From positions 1-35,668 of IMG/VR virus record IMGVR_UViG_3300035099_000663: a DNA stretch of 35,668 bases, one strand, 5' to 3'. Below the pieces are notes generated by a model. That model was given only the letters and a program-made list of their open reading frames with translations, searched no databases and was not told the origin of the DNA. Position numbers and translations under genes: made by a program. Shown in pieces: positions 19,386 through 31,217 of the stretch. The number at the start of each line of letters is the position of its first letter. Within the stretch, counting starts at the first letter, position 1. The DNA is from a virus.

Positions 19386-19835
19386 TCACGTGCCTTCGTT
19401 CTCGTACCACTCGTCGAACTCGCGGACCTTGACGCTGATCTCGGCGACCTGGATGTTCTCGTCATCCTGGGTGGGAGCGAACTTGATGACCGAGAAGGTC
19501 GCCTTGGGACCGCGGGCGCCGACGAGCGCCTTGTCCCGGTCCAGGACGGCGAGTTCGATACCGGTGCTCGCCTGAAAGGCCGCCTCGAATGCCAGGAAGG
19601 CCTCGTCGGCTTCGTCCCAGGCCATCTCGAATTCGTAGCCCAGGCTCAAGAGCACCGGCACGACGCCTTTGACGCCCTGGTTGCTTCTGAAGGTGGCGTC
19701 GCTCTCGCCCTTCTCAGACGTCACCCGCACGTTGCGGATTCTGTCCAGTTCCTCCATTTCCGCGAGTTCCGTTCCCGGCTCGCCGTAGTACATTTTCGCG
19801 TCGGGGCCGAGCAGATAGGTATGGGGGGTTCCCAT
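19386..19835 (-). CDS. Major tail tube protein
   Basis: 149 residues. GPDAKMYYGEPGTELAEMEE, a central beta core (VRVTSEKGESDATFRSNQG, YEFEMAWDEADEAFLAFEAA) and a strand ending in AEISVKVREFDEWYENEG match phage tail tube proteins in size and pattern. Many copies would stack into the tail tube. It sits between the gp10-like tail completion gene and the chaperones, the usual order. Confidence 0.82.
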   Translation of the reverse strand: MGTPHTYLLGPDAKMYYGEPGTELAEMEELDRIRNVRVTSEKGESDATFRSNQGVKGVVPVLLSLGYEFEMAWDEADEAFLAFEAAFQASTGIELAVLDRDKALVGARGPKATFSVIKFAPTQDDENIQVAEISVKVREFDEWYENEGT

Positions 19836-21634: not shown

Positions 21635-22588
21635 TCAGGTTCCGCTCTCGGTGAGCAGCGCCTCGGTGCTGGCGATGGCCGCCGTCGGAATGATGGGGAT
21701 CCCGGCGACGTCCGTGGGAATCGGCGCCGGCGCGCCGGTCGCGTTGGTCGCGGTGCGGCTCTTGCGGAGTTGCTCGAGGCTGCGCCGGTTCATGGTGATC
21801 AAGTTGGGCTGCCGCGCCGCAGGGAACTTCGCCAGGAGCGCGAACAGCAGGTCGTCGGTCAGGCCCTTGCCGCTGTCCTCGGTCAGGTTGCAGATCCGGC
21901 CGACGCTGAAGTTGCCGCCGACCTGGAGGCCCAGCCACCCGCCGATAGGCGTGTAGTACGCCGCGAAGTGCTTGGCCGGATCGTCCGCGGTGAGGGCGTC
22001 GATCACGACGGTCTCGTCGACCTCGATCTGGCCGTTCTTGCCGACGATGAGACACGCGCCGGTCATGACGTCGGAACGCACCATGTAGACGCTCGAGGCC
22101 GTCTTGTCGGTGGTGCCCAAGGCATCGACGACCATCGCGTCGTCGTTGTGGTCGAGTACGTTGGCGAATCCAACGAACCCGTCGCCGTCGGCGTCGATGG
22201 TCCCGTTAAGGACCTGGTGCTCGAAGGCATAGAAGCCCGCGCGGAGGTGCCGGCTGATCTCGCGCGCCAGTTTCTCCTCCGCCGAGTACTTGCCCGGAGC
22301 GTCGATCCAGGCCTTGTCCGTCCGCGTGGCCGCGTCGAGGAACTTGAGGTCCGCGGTCACCAGTTCATCCGTGCTCTTCGAGAAGGCACGGCCGGCGTTC
22401 ACGGCCCGGAAACCGACCAGGGGCGCCTCGATCTCCTTCGTGTACTGGTGGGTGGTGCCGAGCGCGATGTCGGCCGCCATCCGCGCGATGAAGGGGGCGT
22501 CGTTCAAGAGGTCGCTGATCGCCCGTTCGGCGTTGTTCCGGTCGTTGATGACCAGAAGGTTAGCCAGGGTCAGGGGGTCGTCTGCCAT
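21635..22588 (-). CDS. Major capsid protein
   Basis: 317 residues. LLVINDRNNAERAISDLLND, LGTTHQYTKEIEAPLVGFRA, RTDKAWIDAPGKYSAEEKLA and a C-terminal region NLITMNRRSLEQLRKSR with PAPIPTDVAGIPIIPT match HK97-fold major capsid proteins of the GP7-like family, which lack a large cleaved delta domain. GGAGGAGTGAATC precedes the ATG. It follows the protease/scaffold gene as usual. Confidence 0.83.
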   Translation of the reverse strand: MADDPLTLANLLVINDRNNAERAISDLLNDAPFIARMAADIALGTTHQYTKEIEAPLVGFRAVNAGRAFSKSTDELVTADLKFLDAATRTDKAWIDAPGKYSAEEKLAREISRHLRAGFYAFEHQVLNGTIDADGDGFVGFANVLDHNDDAMVVDALGTTDKTASSVYMVRSDVMTGACLIVGKNGQIEVDETVVIDALTADDPAKHFAAYYTPIGGWLGLQVGGNFSVGRICNLTEDSGKGLTDDLLFALLAKFPAARQPNLITMNRRSLEQLRKSRTATNATGAPAPIPTDVAGIPIIPTAAIASTEALLTESGT

Positions 22589-22643: not shown

Positions 22644-23993
22644 TCAGCGGCGGATGCACGTCACTGCCAGGATTTCACGTTCACCGGCGCTCAGGCCCTT
22701 GCCCGACGCCGCTCCGGCTTCAGGTCCCGAGGAGGCGGCCGCCGGGCTTGCGCTCACCGGGCCCGCCGCGCCGCCGCGGTCCACCGCGGCCAGACGCTTC
22801 TTCAGGTCCACGTTCTCGGCCGCGAGTTTCGCCGAGTGCGCGATCTGCGCGGCCTCGAAGGACGTGCCCGCCAGATAGTAGGCCGGGCCGTCTGTGGCAC
22901 CGAAGGCAGAGACAAACCGCTGGAGTTCCGCGCGCGGACCGTCCGCGGGCGGCGCCGGCGGGGCGGCCGGGGATCCCTGCCCGGCCTTCAGGGCCGTCTC
23001 GACGGCGGGCGTTCCCGCCTCCACGGCTTTGCCCGCGTCCACGGCCGGCGGCTTCGGCGCGGCCTCGGCGGGCGTATCGTTCTTGGCATCGACGGCCGCG
23101 GCCTTGACCGGGGCCTCCGCCGCATTCGTCTCTTCTCCCATCGTCTCTTCTCCTTGAGGGTTGAGGACCGTGACGCAGATCTCTTCGCCCGGTCCAAGTT
23201 GGGTCTTCGTATTCATGTCCGCCCCGTACGGGCACACCGCGACGCCGCGGAGCGGCCACTTCCTGATGACCGTGGCCGGGCCGGCCAACTTGTAGCCGTT
23301 CACCTCGACCTCGGCGCCTTCGCCCACCTCCTCGATGACCACGCCCTCGCCGCCCCAGTAGATCGAAGCCTCGTAGGGCACACCCGCCCGGGCCTTGTGA
23401 ATGATCTCCGTGGCCCGGTCGTCCCCTTTGTAGGGCACAAGTGCCCCGGAGCAGACCAGGTCCGGAACCGCATCTTCAGAGGCCTTCACCACATCGAAGC
23501 GGTTCAGGTATCCGATGACCTGGTTGGGGTCGTGGAGATAGTCGATAGGGAGATGGGATTTATGCCGGTGCACTCCCACGAGATCATGGACGAGTTTGCC
23601 CCAGTACCAGTGGCTGATGGGCTTTCCGGTTCGGGCGACGAGCCGCACCGGCGCGGTCTTGGCGTCCTCGCCGTTCTCGCCGAGTTCGAAGACTGTCGCC
23701 TCGCAGCAGAAGGCGTTGGCCGGAACGACGGTGTGTCCATGCTTGTCCTTCTTTCCGGTAGCGGGCTCGAACTGGATCGGCTTGTAGCCGTGCTCCTCGA
23801 GCCACTTCTTGGCGGCCTCGACGGTCCACTTCTCGGCATTGAAGCGGATCGCCTGTTCGACCGTGCCGCCGTTGGGCTTGGACTTCAAGGGTCCTCCCAG
23901 TCCCCGGATCCCCTCCTTGGCCCAGAGTTGGAGGATCCTCACGAAATCATCCGGGTCGCGGAGCCGGGCGGCGTGTTCGTTGGCGTAAGGCAT
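22644..23993 (-). CDS. Prohead maturation protease fused to scaffold
   Basis: 449 residues. An N-terminal region with AIRFNAEKWTVEAAKKWLEE precedes the protease: HLPIDYLHDPNQVIGYL has the catalytic-type His154 in a HDP motif, and GVPYEASIYWGG carries the candidate Ser210. From about 275 an Ala/Pro/Glu-rich linker leads to a scaffold-like end with a coiled coil (LAAENVDLKKRLAAVD). Such proteins scaffold the prohead and then digest the scaffold. AAGGAG lies upstream of the ATG. An internal start for a free scaffold is possible (ATG at about 23140, MGEETNAAEA). Confidence 0.78.
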   Translation of the reverse strand: MPYANEHAARLRDPDDFVRILQLWAKEGIRGLGGPLKSKPNGGTVEQAIRFNAEKWTVEAAKKWLEEHGYKPIQFEPATGKKDKHGHTVVPANAFCCEATVFELGENGEDAKTAPVRLVARTGKPISHWYWGKLVHDLVGVHRHKSHLPIDYLHDPNQVIGYLNRFDVVKASEDAVPDLVCSGALVPYKGDDRATEIIHKARAGVPYEASIYWGGEGVVIEEVGEGAEVEVNGYKLAGPATVIRKWPLRGVAVCPYGADMNTKTQLGPGEEICVTVLNPQGEETMGEETNAAEAPVKAAAVDAKNDTPAEAAPKPPAVDAGKAVEAGTPAVETALKAGQGSPAAPPAPPADGPRAELQRFVSAFGATDGPAYYLAGTSFEAAQIAHSAKLAAENVDLKKRLAAVDRGGAAGPVSASPAAASSGPEAGAASGKGLSAGEREILAVTCIRR

Positions 23994-23996
23994 GGA

Positions 23997-25457
23997 TCAC
24001 TCCTTGTCACCCCGCGCGTCCGGCGGCGGTGCGCTGGGATTCCCCGCCGCCACAGGGAGCGGCGGCAGGCCTTTCTCTTGCCGGTAGGCCAGATACTTGG
24101 CCTCTTCGTCCACGATGTCGTAGGCGTCGCGGCCCGCGGCCTTGCAGACGCCGGGCGTGCTCTCGAAACCTGATTGCACCGCCATCCGATTCGACGCGGC
24201 TTCCTTCAGGGGGTCAAACCACCGCAGGCCGACCGGAATCCATTCCCAGCGGAGATCCTCGAACGTGCTGGCAGGCGGGAGTCTGATTTGGCCGTCGGCG
24301 ATGAAGAGGCCCAGACGCCAGGCAGTCAACCAGTCGAGCATCTGCTGGCAGTCGCGCCGCTTCGGTTCCGTGGACGATTCGTACTGCAGCACCGCCTGGC
24401 GTTGGCCGGCCCAGTTGGTGAAGTTCTCGGCATAGAACGAATACGGGATGTCGAGACCCTTGAGGCCGGCAGCGATCATCTCCTGGAAGAAGGTCTGGAA
24501 CTGCATGGAGGGACTGTTGCTCTCGAGGAACTTTGCGTCATCGCCCGGGTCGAGGTCCAGTTGGACGGGGCCTTGCTTGAAGTCGGCCTTCGGTCCAGTG
24601 GTTGCTCCGCTCTCGGTCTCCTCAGCCTCCGTAATCTCGGCCACGGCTTCCTCGGCCTTGCGGAAGAACACCAGGCCGAAGTACTGCGAGACTTTCATCT
24701 TGGCGAGGGCATAATCGGCGCCCTCGTAGGCGTCGCGGAAAACGTTGATGGCGGCCGCCAGCGGCGAGATGCCGCGGACCTGGTCGAAGCGGTCGAAATA
24801 TCCGTGGAGATGGCACCAGGCGGCCGGAAGCGCGCGTTCGAATTCCAGCAATCCGCCCGTTGCCGCGCGTCTGGAGACGGCGTATTCAATCGGCCGGCCC
24901 TTATCGTCGAGATGGACTCCATGGGTCCACTTCCCCTGCTTGGCGGCAGGCGGCAGTTGGTGGAAACCGAATCCGACCCGGTCTCCCTCGATCCACTGCA
25001 CTTTGCCATAGTCCGGCCCCTGCGGATCGCCGGCGATCCGCAGGCACAGGATATCGCCGTCGAGCGTGCGGCACTCCTCGGCGAGGCGGATCTGCCGGGC
25101 CAAAGGATAGCGGCCGGTGACGTCACAGTTCTCGGCCCGGCTCCACCAGGCGATCTTCTCCTCGATCTCGGCATCGAGCTCCGGATTCCCGGTCTGCGAT
25201 TGGAAGGAGAAGGTCGCCACGTAGTCCAAATGCTTGCGTATGGCCCAGGAGACAGTCGAGAAGTTGCGGCGGAGGTCTCTCGCGGTGGCCGTGAGTTTCC
25301 GCCGCTGACCCGCGGTGAGAATGCGGTCCTCGCTATCCAGGTTAACGAGGGGGGCCTTGCGGCGCATGGTGGTATCGGCGGCGTCGTACGACAGCCCCAT
25401 GACCCGGCGAATGCCGTCCAGGAACCGAACTCTCCGAGGGGCCACAGGCGCGCTCAT
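23997..25457 (-). CDS. Portal protein (lambda gpB type)
   Basis: 486 residues. RRNFSTVSWAIRKHLDYVAT, CDVTGRYPLARQIRLAEECR, GDILCLRIAGDPQGPDYGKV, EYAVSRR, FDQVRGISPLAAAINVFRD and YSFYAENFTNWAGQRQAVLQ follow the lambda portal family in order. It forms the dodecameric ring through which DNA is packaged. The ATG at 25457 overlaps the stop of the gpW-like gene as ATGA; a longer open frame upstream is not coding. Confidence 0.88.
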   Translation of the reverse strand: MSAPVAPRRVRFLDGIRRVMGLSYDAADTTMRRKAPLVNLDSEDRILTAGQRRKLTATARDLRRNFSTVSWAIRKHLDYVATFSFQSQTGNPELDAEIEEKIAWWSRAENCDVTGRYPLARQIRLAEECRTLDGDILCLRIAGDPQGPDYGKVQWIEGDRVGFGFHQLPPAAKQGKWTHGVHLDDKGRPIEYAVSRRAATGGLLEFERALPAAWCHLHGYFDRFDQVRGISPLAAAINVFRDAYEGADYALAKMKVSQYFGLVFFRKAEEAVAEITEAEETESGATTGPKADFKQGPVQLDLDPGDDAKFLESNSPSMQFQTFFQEMIAAGLKGLDIPYSFYAENFTNWAGQRQAVLQYESSTEPKRRDCQQMLDWLTAWRLGLFIADGQIRLPPASTFEDLRWEWIPVGLRWFDPLKEAASNRMAVQSGFESTPGVCKAAGRDAYDIVDEEAKYLAYRQEKGLPPLPVAAGNPSAPPPDARGDKE

Positions 25458-25654
25458 GTGTTCCCCAGGTTGATCGTGGCGCTGCGCGGACGCGCGCCGC
25501 TCTCGATGGCCACGCGCTTCTTCCAGTGTTCGTATTGCTTGATGAGGTCGGCGAAGGCCATTGTCCGGCCGTCGACGATCACGGTCTCCACGCCCGGGTT
25601 GGCCTGCATCAAGCCTTCCAGGAGCGTAACCATCGTCTCGGCGTGCGTGGCCAT
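25454..25654 (-). CDS. gpW-like head-tail joining protein
   Basis: 66 residues, the size of lambda gpW. GLMQANPGVETVIVDGRTMA, FADLIKQYEHWKKRVA and a C-terminal strand pattern match gpW-family joiners, usually located just before the portal as here. The ATG at 25654 (MATHAETM) is chosen; the frame further upstream enters the terminator hairpin. Confidence 0.76.
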   Translation of the reverse strand: MATHAETMVTLLEGLMQANPGVETVIVDGRTMAFADLIKQYEHWKKRVAIESGARPRSATINLGNT

Positions 25655-25689
25655 CGTTCTCGACCTCGGGGTTTGCCGGACGCGCCACG

Positions 25690-25729
25690 AAAAAAAGGCC
25701 GCGCGGGGGCGTGGCCCCACGCGGCCTTT
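25690..25729 (-). terminator. Rho-independent terminator
   Basis: Minus strand: AAAGGCCGCG, a 16-nt loop, then CGCGGCCTTT, followed by further T's (A-run at 25690-25696 on the plus strand). The 10-bp perfect stem plus a 7-T tail is the clearest terminator in the window. It lies between the AT-hook/zinc-ribbon gene and the gpW gene, only 35 bp before the latter. Confidence 0.8.
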
Positions 25730-25833: not shown

Positions 25834-25850
25834 AATAGGTAATGCCTATT
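25834..25850. other. Short AT-rich inverted repeat
   Basis: AATAGG-TAATG-CCTATT in an unusually AT-rich 30-bp stretch, followed on the plus strand by CTTTTTT. It might be a regulator site. The stem is too weak for me to call a terminator, and no plus-strand gene precedes it. The rest of 25730-25870 shows nothing else. Confidence 0.3.
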
Positions 25851-25870
25851 CTTTTTTGCGGCCCGTCTGG

Positions 25871-26122
25871 TCACTCCCTGCGCAGGAGAGTATACCGCTG
25901 CGAGCAGTTTGTGCACCGGACGCGCTTATGGATCACGTGTGTGAAAGGGCGGCCGAGTGAATCGCTCCCGGAGATCGGTCGGTCTGAGATGGTGTGTTCG
26001 ACCTCGCGTTCCACGGATCCGCACCTGGGACACTTGGCCGGCACCTCGACGACCACTAACGGAGGCGCGGTCTTCGACCCCTTGGGGCGGCCGGGCCGGC
26101 GCTTGATCTTCCTCGAGGCCAT
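25871..26122 (-). CDS. AT-hook / zinc-ribbon protein
   Basis: 83 residues. The basic N-terminus KRRPGRPKGSKT is an AT-hook. Two Cys pairs follow (C31/C34 in CPRCGS and C70/C73 in CTNCSQRY), a zinc ribbon. It probably binds DNA; it may assist transcription or packaging. AAGGAGCCATAA precedes the ATG. It runs into the terminator at 25690 and is divergent from the glycosyltransferase genes. Confidence 0.75.
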   Translation of the reverse strand: MASRKIKRRPGRPKGSKTAPPLVVVEVPAKCPRCGSVEREVEHTISDRPISGSDSLGRPFTHVIHKRVRCTNCSQRYTLLRRE

Positions 26123-26149
26123 TTATGGCTCCTTCCTGCTGGACGTAGC

Positions 26150-26905
26150 GTGAACTCGATCATCATCCCTCATCGCGGACGCCTGCCCTTCCTGCGGCAA
26201 TGCCTCGCCTCCATCGAGTGGTGCGCGGAGGCCTGCGGACGCTCGGACTACGAGGTCCTGGTCTCGCACAACGGGCCCCCGCCCGAATCGCGCCCCGGAG
26301 GCCCGCGTGTCCGATGGCTCCTCGATGGCGGAGAGATGCCCATCTTCTGCAAGCCTCGACTCCTCAACCTCGGAATCCGGGAGGCCGCCGGAGACATTCT
26401 AACCTTCCTCGACGCAGACGCCATAGTGGGGCCATCCTGGCTGGCCGGGGTTTCCACTCTCGACGCCGACCGAGCCCTCACGCTCTTGGCGTATCGCGTG
26501 CGCTACCTGCCGGCGCGGGCGCGGATTACGGACCGGGCCACGTGGTTAAGACTCTTCCAGGCATACGACCGGTTTCCCCGCGGCTACGAAGCCTATGGCG
26601 GACCGGACGGCGGACAGAGGCTCCTCCGACCGCAGCCGGCGGCCCCTGTCGTCGGGAACTCCCAGTGCTCGATCCGGCGCCAGATCCTCGGCGATCTCCG
26701 TTGGGACGAACGCTACGTCGGCCGTGGCGCGGAGGACAGGGCCTTCCTGCGCGCGCTCCTGAGACGCGCGGGGACGCGGTTTCGGAGCGTCCTTCGAACG
26801 GAGCCACAGTTCTCTCTCTTCCATCTGCGCCACGATTACGCGCCGGACTGGCGGACCCGCGAGATTGAGAAAGCGAACCATCGGCTCTATCATTCGGAGG
26901 CCTGA
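26150..26905 (+). CDS. GT-A (family 2-like) glycosyltransferase
   Basis: 251 residues. It begins SIIIPHRGRLPFLRQCLASI, the nucleotide-binding start of GT-A enzymes. DAD at 88-90 (ILTFLDADAIVG) is the metal/nucleotide-sugar motif, and GRGAED (191-196) the galactosyltransferase-like C-terminal acceptor motif. It starts with GTG and has no strong ribosome binding site. First of three plus-strand genes, it would transfer a sugar in the cytoplasm to a virion part, DNA or host envelope precursor; the acceptor is unknown. Confidence 0.82.
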   Translation: MNSIIIPHRGRLPFLRQCLASIEWCAEACGRSDYEVLVSHNGPPPESRPGGPRVRWLLDGGEMPIFCKPRLLNLGIREAAGDILTFLDADAIVGPSWLAGVSTLDADRALTLLAYRVRYLPARARITDRATWLRLFQAYDRFPRGYEAYGGPDGGQRLLRPQPAAPVVGNSQCSIRRQILGDLRWDERYVGRGAEDRAFLRALLRRAGTRFRSVLRTEPQFSLFHLRHDYAPDWRTREIEKANHRLYHSEA

Positions 26906-26906
26906 G

Positions 26907-28163
26907 ATGCGCACGCCCGTGCTCACGTTCCATTCGGATCCGCCCGGCTCCTCGTACTTCCGTTCCTGCGCCGCGAGGCTCGTCGCCGACTGCCGGCGTC
27001 TGAGCCTGCCGGTCGTGACCCGCGAACTCCCATGGATCGAGGGAGGAACGTGGGCGGCGACGAACCGTCGGAAGGCCCGTGTCATCGCGGACTTCCTCGC
27101 CGAGCCCGGACGGCCGGTCCTCTGGGTGGACGCGGACAGTCGGATTCTCCGAGATCCAGGAGAAATCATCGACCGCCTGACTTGCGACTTCGCGGCCGTC
27201 AAGCAACAGTTGCCCGGACGTCCGGACATCCCCGTCCTGGCGACGGTTCTCTACTTCGGCTGTTCCGCCCGGGCGCGACAGTTCGCTCAGGAATGGGCGA
27301 GGGCGTGTGAACATAAGACGGCCGTCGGAAACGACCACGACGTCCTGGTGCGCGTCCTAGAACAGGCGCATGGGCTGAGTCACCAGGTGCTCGACGAGCG
27401 CTTGTGCGAAGTTCCCGGCCACGCGCCAGCGGGCCTCGCCCCGTATGTTCGTTTCGGTCTTTCGCATCCTCCCTGGCAGAAGCACGTCCGCACGGTCCCG
27501 CCGATCACGGCGACCATCACGACCTGCCGCCGGCTGAAGCACCTCGCGCGGCTCCTCGAGTCCGTAGAACGCCACGTCGTAGACCGCTATCTCGTGGACC
27601 GCTGGATTGTGGTGGATGACGGCTCCGAAGAGGCGGATCTCGTCGAGATGGCCGAGCGATGGCCATTCCTCGATATCGTCCGGAACGATCTCCGCGGCCA
27701 CGTCAATGCCGTCAACCTGCTCTATTCCCTCGTCGAGACGCCGCTGGTCCTGTACCTGGAGGACGACTGGGAGTTCACGCGCGCGGATCTTCTGATCCAC
27801 GACGCCTATTCGGTTCTGCTCGAGGACCGACACGTGAAATCGGTAGGATTCCGATCGTGGTCCTGTCCCCATCGTCGCACCGGCTCCGCCGTTACGTACC
27901 AGGAGCATTGTTACCTGCGGGGACGCGCCGGTCGGCGGTCCCCGGGAAGCGATGCATTCTGGCCTGGATTCACGTTGAACCCAAGCCTCCAGGTTATGGA
28001 GGCCGTCCGCCAAGTGCTCCCCGCGACGATGCCGGAGTTCGAGTTCCGGATGGCGCTCGCCTTCCATCGCAAGGGCTTCCGGTGCGCCCATCTGGATCCC
28101 GGCGCCGTGAAGCACACCGGAGATGGTCAGTCCGCGTACGCCCTGACGGGAGCATCTCGTTGA
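26907..28163 (+). CDS. Two-domain glycosyltransferase
   Basis: 418 residues. The N-terminal domain (about 1-190) has DAD at 75-77 (VLWVDADSRIL), as in nucleotide-diphospho-sugar transferases. From about 198 (ITATITTCRRLKHLARLLES) a second GT-A domain begins, with VDDGS (236-240) and LEDDW (284-288). The two halves could add different sugars. GGAGG 6 nt before the ATG at 26907 decides the start, one base after the previous stop. It overlaps the next gene by 4 bp. Confidence 0.82.
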   Translation: MRTPVLTFHSDPPGSSYFRSCAARLVADCRRLSLPVVTRELPWIEGGTWAATNRRKARVIADFLAEPGRPVLWVDADSRILRDPGEIIDRLTCDFAAVKQQLPGRPDIPVLATVLYFGCSARARQFAQEWARACEHKTAVGNDHDVLVRVLEQAHGLSHQVLDERLCEVPGHAPAGLAPYVRFGLSHPPWQKHVRTVPPITATITTCRRLKHLARLLESVERHVVDRYLVDRWIVVDDGSEEADLVEMAERWPFLDIVRNDLRGHVNAVNLLYSLVETPLVLYLEDDWEFTRADLLIHDAYSVLLEDRHVKSVGFRSWSCPHRRTGSAVTYQEHCYLRGRAGRRSPGSDAFWPGFTLNPSLQVMEAVRQVLPATMPEFEFRMALAFHRKGFRCAHLDPGAVKHTGDGQSAYALTGASR

Positions 28164-29146
28164 GGATCCGGCACTTCGTGAATCTCTGGTGGATCGGCGG
28201 AATTGAACACAACCTCCTGCGTCTCGTCGACGCCACCCCGGACTGGACCCACGAGATCGTCGTGAAGGCCCTCGGAGAACGTCGGACTGACGCAGTGGAT
28301 CCGGTCGCCGAGGGCCTTGCCGCCGCCCGCGGGACTGCACTCACGCCCTGGCGCACGTACGAGGCGAGCGGAGCCGATGCCGTCATCTACCACAATCAGT
28401 CGGGTGCGGCGCCGGGCTCTGCGGCACTTGGGCGACCGGTGGTCTCCGTCTGGCATGGCTGGGCCACGCGTGGCTACGTTCCCGATGCGCTCAACACCGG
28501 CGTGAACTCCCATACGGTCGAAATCCTGCGGATCCGCCAGGGCCTGGACCTGCTGCCCAGCCTGCATCCAGGGATCGGGGCTGTGCGACAGAAGGGTGGT
28601 TATGCTCTCCACGATCCTCCGATCATCGGCTTGATCGCCAGTCCGCGGCCGGAGAAGTTCTCGCCGATGCTCGTCGCGGCGCTCAACCGATTGGCCAGCA
28701 AGAGGCCATTCCAGTTCCGGGCCCTCGGGATGGCTCTCCTGGCGCGATTCTTCCGCCGGGCGCGGTTTGATCACGAACTCCTCGTCCCGGAGACGCGGTG
28801 GGAGGAGAAGGAGGGGTTTCTGCTCGGCCTCGATGTGGGCCTGCACCTCGTGGGCTGCATCGAAGGATTCGGGATCGCCTGCCAGGAAATGCTCGCCGCG
28901 GGGATCCCGGTGGTAGCCGATGACCGCGGCGGACCGAGGGATCAGATCACCCACGAGGTCAACGGGCTCCTGGTCGCCAATGTCACCGCCGCGGTGAATG
29001 CGCTCGAACTACTCCTCAGCGACGCCCCGCTCCGCCAGCGGCTGGGCAGGGCAGCGGCCGAAAGGGTCGCCATCCAGTACTCGCTCGCCGATTTCCGGGA
29101 GCGCTACGAGCGAGCAATCGCGTTGGCCTTGATCAGAGTGCAGTGA
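28160..29146 (+). CDS. GT-B (GT4-like) glycosyltransferase
   Basis: 328 residues from a TTG that overlaps the previous stop as TTGA, with GGGAG upstream. The N-terminus, RHFVNLWWIGGIEHNLLRLV, is a variant of the GT-B first-strand loop. EGFGIACQE (235-243) followed by AAGIPVVADDRGGPRDQI is the C-terminal donor-binding E-x7-E motif of GT4 enzymes. The short N-terminal domain suggests a compact form. The gene ends 14 bp into the terL gene, which is convergent. Confidence 0.8.
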   Translation: MRIRHFVNLWWIGGIEHNLLRLVDATPDWTHEIVVKALGERRTDAVDPVAEGLAAARGTALTPWRTYEASGADAVIYHNQSGAAPGSAALGRPVVSVWHGWATRGYVPDALNTGVNSHTVEILRIRQGLDLLPSLHPGIGAVRQKGGYALHDPPIIGLIASPRPEKFSPMLVAALNRLASKRPFQFRALGMALLARFFRRARFDHELLVPETRWEEKEGFLLGLDVGLHLVGCIEGFGIACQEMLAAGIPVVADDRGGPRDQITHEVNGLLVANVTAAVNALELLLSDAPLRQRLGRAAAERVAIQYSLADFRERYERAIALALIRVQ

Positions 29147-31217
29147 TCCGTGGCGGCCGCCGGCGCCGCGGGACGCTCGGTTTCTCCGCCGGCCCGCCGC
29201 AGCCGAGGATCGACGCGGCGACCGCGCAGTATTCCAGGCAATCGAACCAGTGGTTGTCCGGCCGATTCGGCAGTTGCCGCCATTGATGCACGGTCCGGCC
29301 GTGGCCGGTCGTCAGATCCCAGCGTTCAGATTCCGCAACGTGCGCCGCGAAGAGATCGTGCTCCGCGTTCGATTTACCCCACAGGGTGAAGGACCCACGT
29401 TCGCCTGGCCCGATCTCCAGGCGCTCGTGGACGAACGTCTTCCAGTAGTTCGTGTCCACGGCGACGTAACGGAACTCCCGCGTGCCCTTGAGCGACGGAG
29501 TATACCAGTGGTGCCCATGGCGTTCGCCAGGCCGCTGGCGATATGACGACATCGGCCGGTCGCCCGCCCCGATGCCGATACCGCGTGAGCCCTCGATCAG
29601 TCCGCCACCCATTCGATGTCTCACCGCCTCCACGATGCCGGGCTTCCAGGCGCTATCCACGAGACACTTGCCGATGGACGCCATCCCGGCCTTGCCGGCC
29701 CGCGCCCAACCCTTCGTCTGCAATCGGGTGAGCAGGACCTCGAGGCCGGCCTGAATCGCCCCGTCCTCGCCAAGCCCTGGATGCGCGCGGCCCAGCGTTC
29801 GCGTCGCTGTCGCTTCCGTGAAGTAGTAGCGGTCCTGCTGGGGATAGGTTCCGTAATCGACAACGTAGCCAGTCCAGTCCTGGGCGCAGGCCAGGACGAC
29901 GTAGAAGAGGAGCTTCTTGTGGAGGTCGACCCCGGCCGTCAGATACTGGCACTCAATGGGCACCTCGCCGCGCGACCGCCCGTTGAGCCGATCTGCGACG
30001 GCCTGGGCGGTGAGACGTCCAAGATCCGATTCCGGCACGAGCGGTTCGTTCTGCTGCTCGGCGGCAAAACTGCGCGGGTTCTCAATGAAGAGGTTCATGG
30101 CGTGTTGCACCGCGGAAATCTCGCCGGGATCAAACCGTTCCGGCCACGCGGGCTTCGCTCCTCGATCCATCGCGTGCTGATGGAGCCGATAGAAAGTTGT
30201 GGCCAGGCGGATGTCGTCATGCGTACCCAGGCTTTCGGCGCGCAAGCGCGCGTACTGATCCCAGAGTCGGCGGTTGGCCGGAAATCGGTATAGCGTCTTG
30301 GTGCGTTCACCCCGGAACTCCGGATGGAGTTTTCGGTCGAGAATCTGATCCGAGAGGTCTCCGCGCTCGATCACGGTGCACGGCACGAGCACGCCCAGGT
30401 TCCGGCCGGGTCCGGCCATCCCCTTCACGGCGCCGGTAAGGAGTTTCATCCGCTGATCGGTTTGCAGGGGACTCCTGGCCGATTCATCAGTCTGAGGGTC
30501 ATCGCAAAGCACGAGACTAGGCCGCACAGTCCGGCCGCCCGGCTGAACTCTGAGCGGCCCTCGGACATTTCCGGTCAAACCCGTTCCGCGAATGACGGCA
30601 CCGCTCGCCGCGCTTCCAGGGATCGCCGGCAGAACGATCTGTAGTTCTTCCCATTGTATGCGGGTCGGTTGGCCTTCGTAGCGCTGGCCCAGACACCGGC
30701 GGGGCTCGTTTTCGAGGGCGCGGATCGGATAGAGGATCTCGGGGAAGTCATCGAGGAGCGGTCCTTCGCTCTGCAGATTCGCCTTCAGATTGTCGATCAA
30801 CATCTCCTTGGCGGTCCGATCTGTTGCAGCCAGAAGGAACGCATACGGGTGTCCCCAACAGAAGGTCGCCCACTCGACCGCGGCTAGACAGAGGGACGTT
30901 TTGCCGCTGCCGCGCGGCATGGCGATGGCCAAGAATCCGCCGTGCCATACAACGATCTCGATCTTGGCGATCACGCGTTTGTGATCTTCCGACCATGGCA
31001 GGTAGAAGGTCGGTCGATGGTAGACCTCGCAGTAGGTTTGAAAGGAAGCCTTGGCGGCGGCGCGGCGTTCGGGATCCTTGACCGGCGGAAGCGGACCGAT
31101 TTCCTGGCCAGCGCGAACGGTCCGAGCGCTACGGGCCCGGGCGGCGGCTCTGTGCGCCTGATAGGTCTTCGCCTCGCGCGAAGAACTCGATGAGTTTCGT
31201 CGCGGCGACGCGGGCAT
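29133..31217 (-). CDS. terL: Terminase large subunit
   Basis: 694 residues. The Walker A is PRGSGKTS (101-108), the Walker B VLCDDPQ (236-242), and the nuclease domain begins GVDLHKKLLFYVV with Asp431. DNHWFDCLEYCAVAA near the end supplies further acidic residues. It would drive ATP-dependent packaging into the portal. It overlaps the small subunit by 254 bp if the first ATG is used; AGAGGAAC precedes that ATG. The Ser/Arg-rich N-terminus may be a TerS-contact region. Confidence 0.88.
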   Translation of the reverse strand: MPASPRRNSSSSSREAKTYQAHRAAARARSARTVRAGQEIGPLPPVKDPERRAAAKASFQTYCEVYHRPTFYLPWSEDHKRVIAKIEIVVWHGGFLAIAMPRGSGKTSLCLAAVEWATFCWGHPYAFLLAATDRTAKEMLIDNLKANLQSEGPLLDDFPEILYPIRALENEPRRCLGQRYEGQPTRIQWEELQIVLPAIPGSAASGAVIRGTGLTGNVRGPLRVQPGGRTVRPSLVLCDDPQTDESARSPLQTDQRMKLLTGAVKGMAGPGRNLGVLVPCTVIERGDLSDQILDRKLHPEFRGERTKTLYRFPANRRLWDQYARLRAESLGTHDDIRLATTFYRLHQHAMDRGAKPAWPERFDPGEISAVQHAMNLFIENPRSFAAEQQNEPLVPESDLGRLTAQAVADRLNGRSRGEVPIECQYLTAGVDLHKKLLFYVVLACAQDWTGYVVDYGTYPQQDRYYFTEATATRTLGRAHPGLGEDGAIQAGLEVLLTRLQTKGWARAGKAGMASIGKCLVDSAWKPGIVEAVRHRMGGGLIEGSRGIGIGAGDRPMSSYRQRPGERHGHHWYTPSLKGTREFRYVAVDTNYWKTFVHERLEIGPGERGSFTLWGKSNAEHDLFAAHVAESERWDLTTGHGRTVHQWRQLPNRPDNHWFDCLEYCAVAASILGCGGPAEKPSVPRRRRPPRITAL

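Follow-up and report, generated by a model that had tools for sequence, protein, structure and literature searches.

A three-glycosyltransferase cassette and related glycan islands between terL and portal in Planctomycetota-linked phages

What might three glycosyltransferase genes do that lie between the terminase and head genes of a tailed phage, on the strand opposite to both? The question is raised by a cassette (GT1, GT2 and GT3) in the DNA analysed here, hereafter the window, which is one IMG/VR virus record taken over its whole length of 35,668 bases. The original prediction had proposed two roles for the cassette, glycosylation of a virion protein or conversion of the host envelope. Both virion glycosylation and serotype conversion by phages are known.

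Layout of the cassette and its surroundings

As predicted, three intact and tightly coupled glycosyltransferase reading frames were found on the plus-strand between terL and the head genes (Table 1). One base separates the GT1 stop codon from the GT2 ATG, and the TTG start of GT3 overlaps the GT2 stop codon as TTGA. The GTG start of GT1 lines up with the start of its relatives in the alignment. The genes for TerL, the zinc ribbon, the gpW-like protein, the portal, the protease and the major head protein all lie on the opposite strand, in agreement with what had been claimed for the neighbours, and the integrase and further tail genes of the window are minus-strand as well.

Table 1. Features of the window around the glycosyltransferase cassette
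Feature	Coordinates	Strand	Remarks
GT1	26150..26905	+	251 aa; GTG start; GT-A fold glycosyltransferase, Pfam Glycos_transf_2; DADA metal-binding motif and GRGxED motif
GT2	26907..28163	+	418 aa; ATG start; N-terminal GT-A-like half (VDADS motif), C-terminal Glycos_transf_2 half (LEDDW motif)
GT3	28160..29146	+	328 aa; TTG start; GT-B fold, GT4-like (PF00534/PF13692); EGFGIACQE motif
TerL, large terminase	29133..31217	-	GpA endonuclease domain
Small zinc-ribbon protein	25871..26122	-	kept between terL and portal in L018, L110 and L111; other forms in L117 and L103
Terminator-like hairpin	25694..25729	-	15 pairs, T tail; just upstream of gpW/portal genes
gpW-like small gene	25454-25720	-	overlaps longest portal ORF
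Portal protein, lambda-type	23997..25688	-	longest ORF runs into gpW-like gene
Head maturation protease/scaffold	22644..23993	-	
Major head protein	21635..22588	-	possible acceptor
Major tail protein (probable)	19386..19835	-	possible acceptor; assigned by position and resemblance only

GT3 overlaps the 3' end of terL by 14 nt, and 27 nt separate the head-to-head start codons of GT1 and the zinc-ribbon gene. Hardly any free DNA is thus left around the cassette, and a dedicated promoter would have to sit in or beyond the zinc-ribbon gene. A search for sigma-70-like promoters gave a single match, within the 3' end of GT1, with a consensus that is uninformative for Planctomycetota. We also observed a 103-aa plus-strand reading frame (25842-26153) antisense to the zinc-ribbon gene, overlapping the GT1 start as GTGA; it is probably due to chance, but it could couple GT1 translation. 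On the other side of the zinc ribbon, the true portal start is probably further inside than that of the longest reading frame. The hairpin suggests that terL and portal are separate transcription units, and similar hairpins border the slot on its portal side in four other loci (L057, L082, L109 and L111). A resemblance of the zinc ribbon to Mu Com was discarded as not significant (E 0.007 across 12 residues).

Codon usage, GC3 and base composition of the cassette fit the phage's other genes, and antisense reading frames across it scored worse in the comparison of codon usage and GC3. A lone foreign insertion was rejected because codon usage is phage-like and the gene order recurs in two other phages. 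End repeats were likewise dismissed as the cause of the inversion: the inverted and direct repeats found at the cassette ends are short and near chance, and one 16-nt repeat (I6; 25963-25978 and 29088-29103) is the only pair near both ends.

Identity of the three enzymes

GT1 matched PF00535 (3e-8, 34.1 bits against a cut-off of 23.3), as did the C-terminal half of GT2 (7e-8, 33.1 bits against 23.3). The N-terminal half of GT2 had no Pfam match. GT3 matched PF00534 (3e-15, 56.7 bits against a cut-off of 26.4) and PF13692 (5e-11). The catalytic motifs are intact and kept in relatives (DADA and GRG-ED in GT1, VDADS and EDDW in GT2, EGFGIA-QE in GT3).

The structural model of GT1, built from a 12-sequence alignment (pLDDT 92), has a GT-A fold with chondroitin polymerase, AvpGT and TarP/TarS as nearest structures. 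The GT2 model is confident mainly in the N-terminal half; its best fold matches are tandem GT-A enzymes, with the A64R glycosyltransferase domain of PBCV-1 ranking lower, and its final 130 residues are poorly modelled and were left out of the interpretation. Pfam for the C-terminal half and the model for the N-terminal half together support the predicted GT-A/GT-A architecture of GT2. Among the island enzymes tested, none had a predicted membrane helix, and the maximum 19-residue hydropathy of GT1-GT3 was 1.33-1.59. At the sequence level, GT1 and GT2 matched no solved glycosyltransferase, tblastn with GT1, GT2 and GT3 gave no match in 50,697 phage records, and PHROG yielded only weak glycosyltransferase matches for GT3.

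A family of islands between terL and portal

Scans with the GT1 sequence and alignment gave 16 usable relatives, whose gene context was determined by tblastn of the window proteins. The search for the same three-gene order in other phages, suggested with the original prediction, was successful: a second IMG/VR record (L109) and a contig of a Planctomycetota metagenome-assembled genome (L117) likewise have GT1-GT2-GT3, in this sequence, in the interval from terL to portal, with identities to the window of 51% for GT1, 47% for GT2 and 49-52% for GT3. Conservation of the order at ~47-52% identity argues that the cassette is more than a chance arrangement. Frameshifted glycosyltransferase genes in relatives, named beforehand as a finding that would speak against the prediction, were not seen in L109 or L117. 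An FkbM methyltransferase gene sits between GT1 and GT2 in L109. The L117 contig also carries an integrase, a histidine kinase and a UVR-motif gene; it is accordingly a prophage within a bacterial contig. The full trio is rare, with three cases including the window; viral scans based on GT3 recovered only L109 and one weak fragment.

In nine of the 16 other GT1-family loci, the GT1 homologue lies in the slot between terL and portal. We define the island family by this position; orientation with terL is common among its members but not required. The family comprises the window, L100, L101, L103, L104, L105, L109, L110, L111 and L117, where the L110 stretch analysed does not include portal. The cassette is hence one member of a GT1-led island family rather than an isolated insertion. 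Seven members (L100, L101, L103, L104, L105, L110 and L111) have a GT1 homologue near terL that opens a larger co-directional island with radical-SAM proteins, sulfotransferases, FkbM and Methyltransf_24 methyltransferases and more glycosyltransferases, although most radical-SAM and several sulfotransferase assignments score below the Pfam cut-off. In every terL-linked GT1 island of the relatives, no glycosyltransferase lies closer to terL than GT1.

In the nine relatives the genes share the direction of terL, and the window cassette is inverted. Opposite orientation, stressed in the original prediction, does not characterize the group: the two trio relatives and all other glycan islands found between terL and portal run with both genes. 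The reversed orientation is peculiar to the window phage and has so far been seen only there.

GT1 homologues also occur elsewhere in phage genomes. By visual inspection, the structural operon of L098 contains a GT1-radical SAM-glycosyltransferase island, flanked by tail-connector genes on one side and by the probable major tail protein on the other, and in L106 GT1 comes after tail-fibre/LamG-like genes. The radical-SAM proteins of the islands align well among themselves, with their cysteines kept, and a scan with this alignment recovered more islands directly before portal (L180, L182 and L186; GT1 not detectable) and many relatives in other phages. This radical-SAM family, with conserved CxxxCxxC-type cysteines, was present in 118 viral-contig stretches, and another island enzyme was nearby in 30 of the 80 examined (L169-L248). 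A 72.8-kb phage contig (L102:2784-19763) holds an unusually large glycan island, a long run of glycosyltransferase genes with methyltransferase-like, sugar-epimerase-like and sulfotransferase-like genes, assigned by eye except for five PF00535 matches.

The slot itself is often empty or otherwise occupied. The closest terminase relative, L018 (54% identity in TerL, 44% in portal and 41% in the zinc ribbon), has a short terL-portal interval that holds the zinc ribbon, tens of bases away from terL, and lacks glycosyltransferase genes. None of the terminase relatives L018-L097 has an island enzyme in the slot, and PF00535 had no match in any of the 50 terminase relatives tested. One terminase relative carries a full catalase gene (PF00199, E 5e-188) antisense in the slot (L043:14150-15625), possibly a stress-protection gene for the lysogen. 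In another relative (L049:13157-15673), genes for a solute-binding-like protein, an ABC transporter ATPase (the one checked by Pfam) and a permease-like protein fill the slot. Vertical co-inheritance of GT1 and TerL found no support, since their divergences are uncorrelated among nine phages (Mantel r = -0.06, p = 0.55), a sign that the islands travel from phage to phage yet insert at a single slot. Taken together, empty slots, unrelated cargo and uncorrelated divergence identify the terL-portal interval as an accessory-gene site, which glycan islands have probably entered repeatedly.

TerL relatives were detected in 54 of 392 Planctomycetota genomes, some of them on megabase contigs. The GT1 family scored strongly in one of the 392, which is the L117 genome itself; the family therefore looks phage-borne rather than host-owned. 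L117 and the terL relatives, in a scan devoted to this phylum, suggest that the host of the window phage belongs to the Planctomycetota.

Virion, envelope or DNA as the target

The relatives' co-orientation with terL, the positions in structural operons, the soluble enzymes and the glycan-modifying partners point to the decoration of a virion protein in late infection. The prediction had left virion protein and host envelope as equal candidates. Both are still considered here, but the late-operon placement of the relatives tilts the balance towards the virion, short of proof, and the equal weighting was given up. We consider it rather probable that the cassette is a terL-linked modular island glycosylating a virion protein.

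We propose that the cassette belongs, as a compact and inverted form, to a group of glycan-decoration islands in the terL-portal interval of temperate Planctomycetota-linked tailed phages. The most plausible enzyme for the first step is GT1, the glycosyltransferase that the islands have in common; acting in the cytoplasm, it would put the first or core sugar on a structural protein of the phage. Both GT2 (two GT-A domains) and GT3 (a GT-B enzyme) would then lengthen it to a short glycan, using host sugar nucleotides. The sulfotransferases, the methyltransferases (FkbM and others) and the radical-SAM enzymes of related islands may further modify this glycan, and the slot would act as an exchangeable module of coat variation. 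The inverted copy in the window would have to use its own promoter or readthrough. We infer the virion-protein acceptor, the first action of GT1, the sugars used and late expression from these gene arrangements. Inspection of the major head and probable tail proteins as acceptors revealed no obvious glycosylation tail and nothing decisive. Counting against decoration of the virion, the window cassette is antisense to the late genes, as lysogenic-conversion genes often are, and island positions differ between phages. Soluble glycosyltransferases can also act on lipid-linked envelope precursors.

Known systems resemble the cassette in part. Mycobacteriophages carry glycans on the C-termini of capsid and tail-tube proteins, according to passages in PMC12619734 and PMC11256854, both citing Freeman 2023. 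In Che8 and its relatives (Freeman 2023, as cited there), phage-encoded glycosyltransferases are tied to a glycan on structural proteins, as is proposed here for the cassette. Unlike those systems, GT1-GT3 are without a detectable match in the 50,697 phage records and the host phylum is another one; in Maravista, the glycosyltransferase genes are described in these passages as near the 3' end of the genome and not in the terL-portal slot, and the passages mention no sulfotransferase or radical-SAM partners. The chlorovirus PBCV-1 also encodes glycosyltransferases and methyltransferase domains, proposed to decorate a capsid protein (PMC4691112), and the GT2 model matches A64R fold entries; however, PBCV-1 is a eukaryotic giant virus, and the similarity is at fold level only, with a GT2 model that is weak outside the N-terminal half. 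The gtrABC serotype-conversion clusters are likewise small glycosyltransferase operons of temperate phages, but the window cassette has no GtrA, membrane-anchored GtrB or multi-pass GtrC and lies in the head/packaging region. This difference had been predicted from the lack of a flippase and an acetyltransferase, and indeed neither the GtrA flippase (PF04138) nor an acyltransferase was found in the window, a record that may be incomplete. TarP, a prophage-encoded wall teichoic acid glycosyltransferase, is a phage-borne GT-A enzyme like GT1, whose model aligns with TarP/TarS folds; yet it is a single gene acting on teichoic acid, and at ~12% identity to GT1 the resemblance is one of fold.

These comparisons bear on lysogenic conversion, the main rival explanation, in which the inverted cassette would have a promoter of its own, active in the prophage, and would add sugars to a host envelope glycan, blocking superinfection like gtr clusters or altering the surface like TarP. 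An integrase in the window and the orientation opposite to the late operon are in line with it, as is the unrelated antisense cargo of relatives (the catalase of L043), which marks the slot as a general accessory-gene site. TarP, whose GT-A fold type the GT1 model shares, is prophage-encoded and glycosylates wall teichoic acid, as stated in a passage of PMC9650247. We nevertheless regard lysogenic conversion as unlikely, given the missing GtrA, acyltransferase and membrane helices and the location of sister islands in the tail module (L098) or next to tail-fibre-like genes (L106). Moreover, in L109 and L117 the trio shares the direction of the late genes, and a lysogen normally keeps such genes silent.

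Other conceivable targets during infection are a soluble small molecule or a host protein, and the genes might also be passengers without a selected role. The metabolic cargo of the slot elsewhere (ABC transporter in L049, catalase in L043) would fit, but motifs that stay intact at ~50% divergence in three phages, with the order kept, and the consistent pairing of glycosyltransferases with glycan-modifying enzymes make this reading quite improbable. Hypermodification of phage DNA, with a glycan built on a modified base of the packaged genome, is a highly improbable reading, even though the cassette adjoins the packaging terminase and multi-glycosyltransferase pathways on phage DNA are known (Pyle 2024, as cited in a passage of PMC12619734). 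The absence of DNA-modification precursor genes, already noted in the original prediction, was borne out by searches for thymidylate-synthase/hydroxymethylase-type genes (PF00303) in the window, with the reservation that the record may be incomplete, and for TET/JBP genes (PF12851) in the window and eight relatives, where the positive control was weak. The lack of a base-modifying partner in these searches argues against DNA glycosylation, and sulfotransferases and radical-SAM enzymes better fit glycan or protein decoration.

Returning to decoration of the virion, the phage records and literature searched did not yield the GT1 family, the recurrent terL-portal site, the mixture of enzymes or the host group. 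That search retrieved no literature on planctomycete phages or on phage radical-SAM/sulfotransferase islands, and no planctomycete phage with such genes. Tentatively, and with considerable doubt, we suggest that temperate Planctomycetota phages reserve a slot next to terL for exchangeable coat-modification modules. GT1 might start a virion-protein glycan there, and swapped sets of glycosyltransferases, sulfotransferases, methyltransferases and radical-SAM enzymes might produce chemically distinct, possibly sulfated and radical-modified surfaces; inversion might uncouple the module from late transcription. Few systems of virion glycosylation are known from tailed phages. A slot that recurs and holds modular glycan enzymes, with radical-SAM enzymes and sulfotransferases among them, offers a defined place to seek chemical diversity of phage coats, and comparison of phages that have the island with phages that lack it makes the question of the acceptor of phage-encoded glycosyltransferases directly testable.
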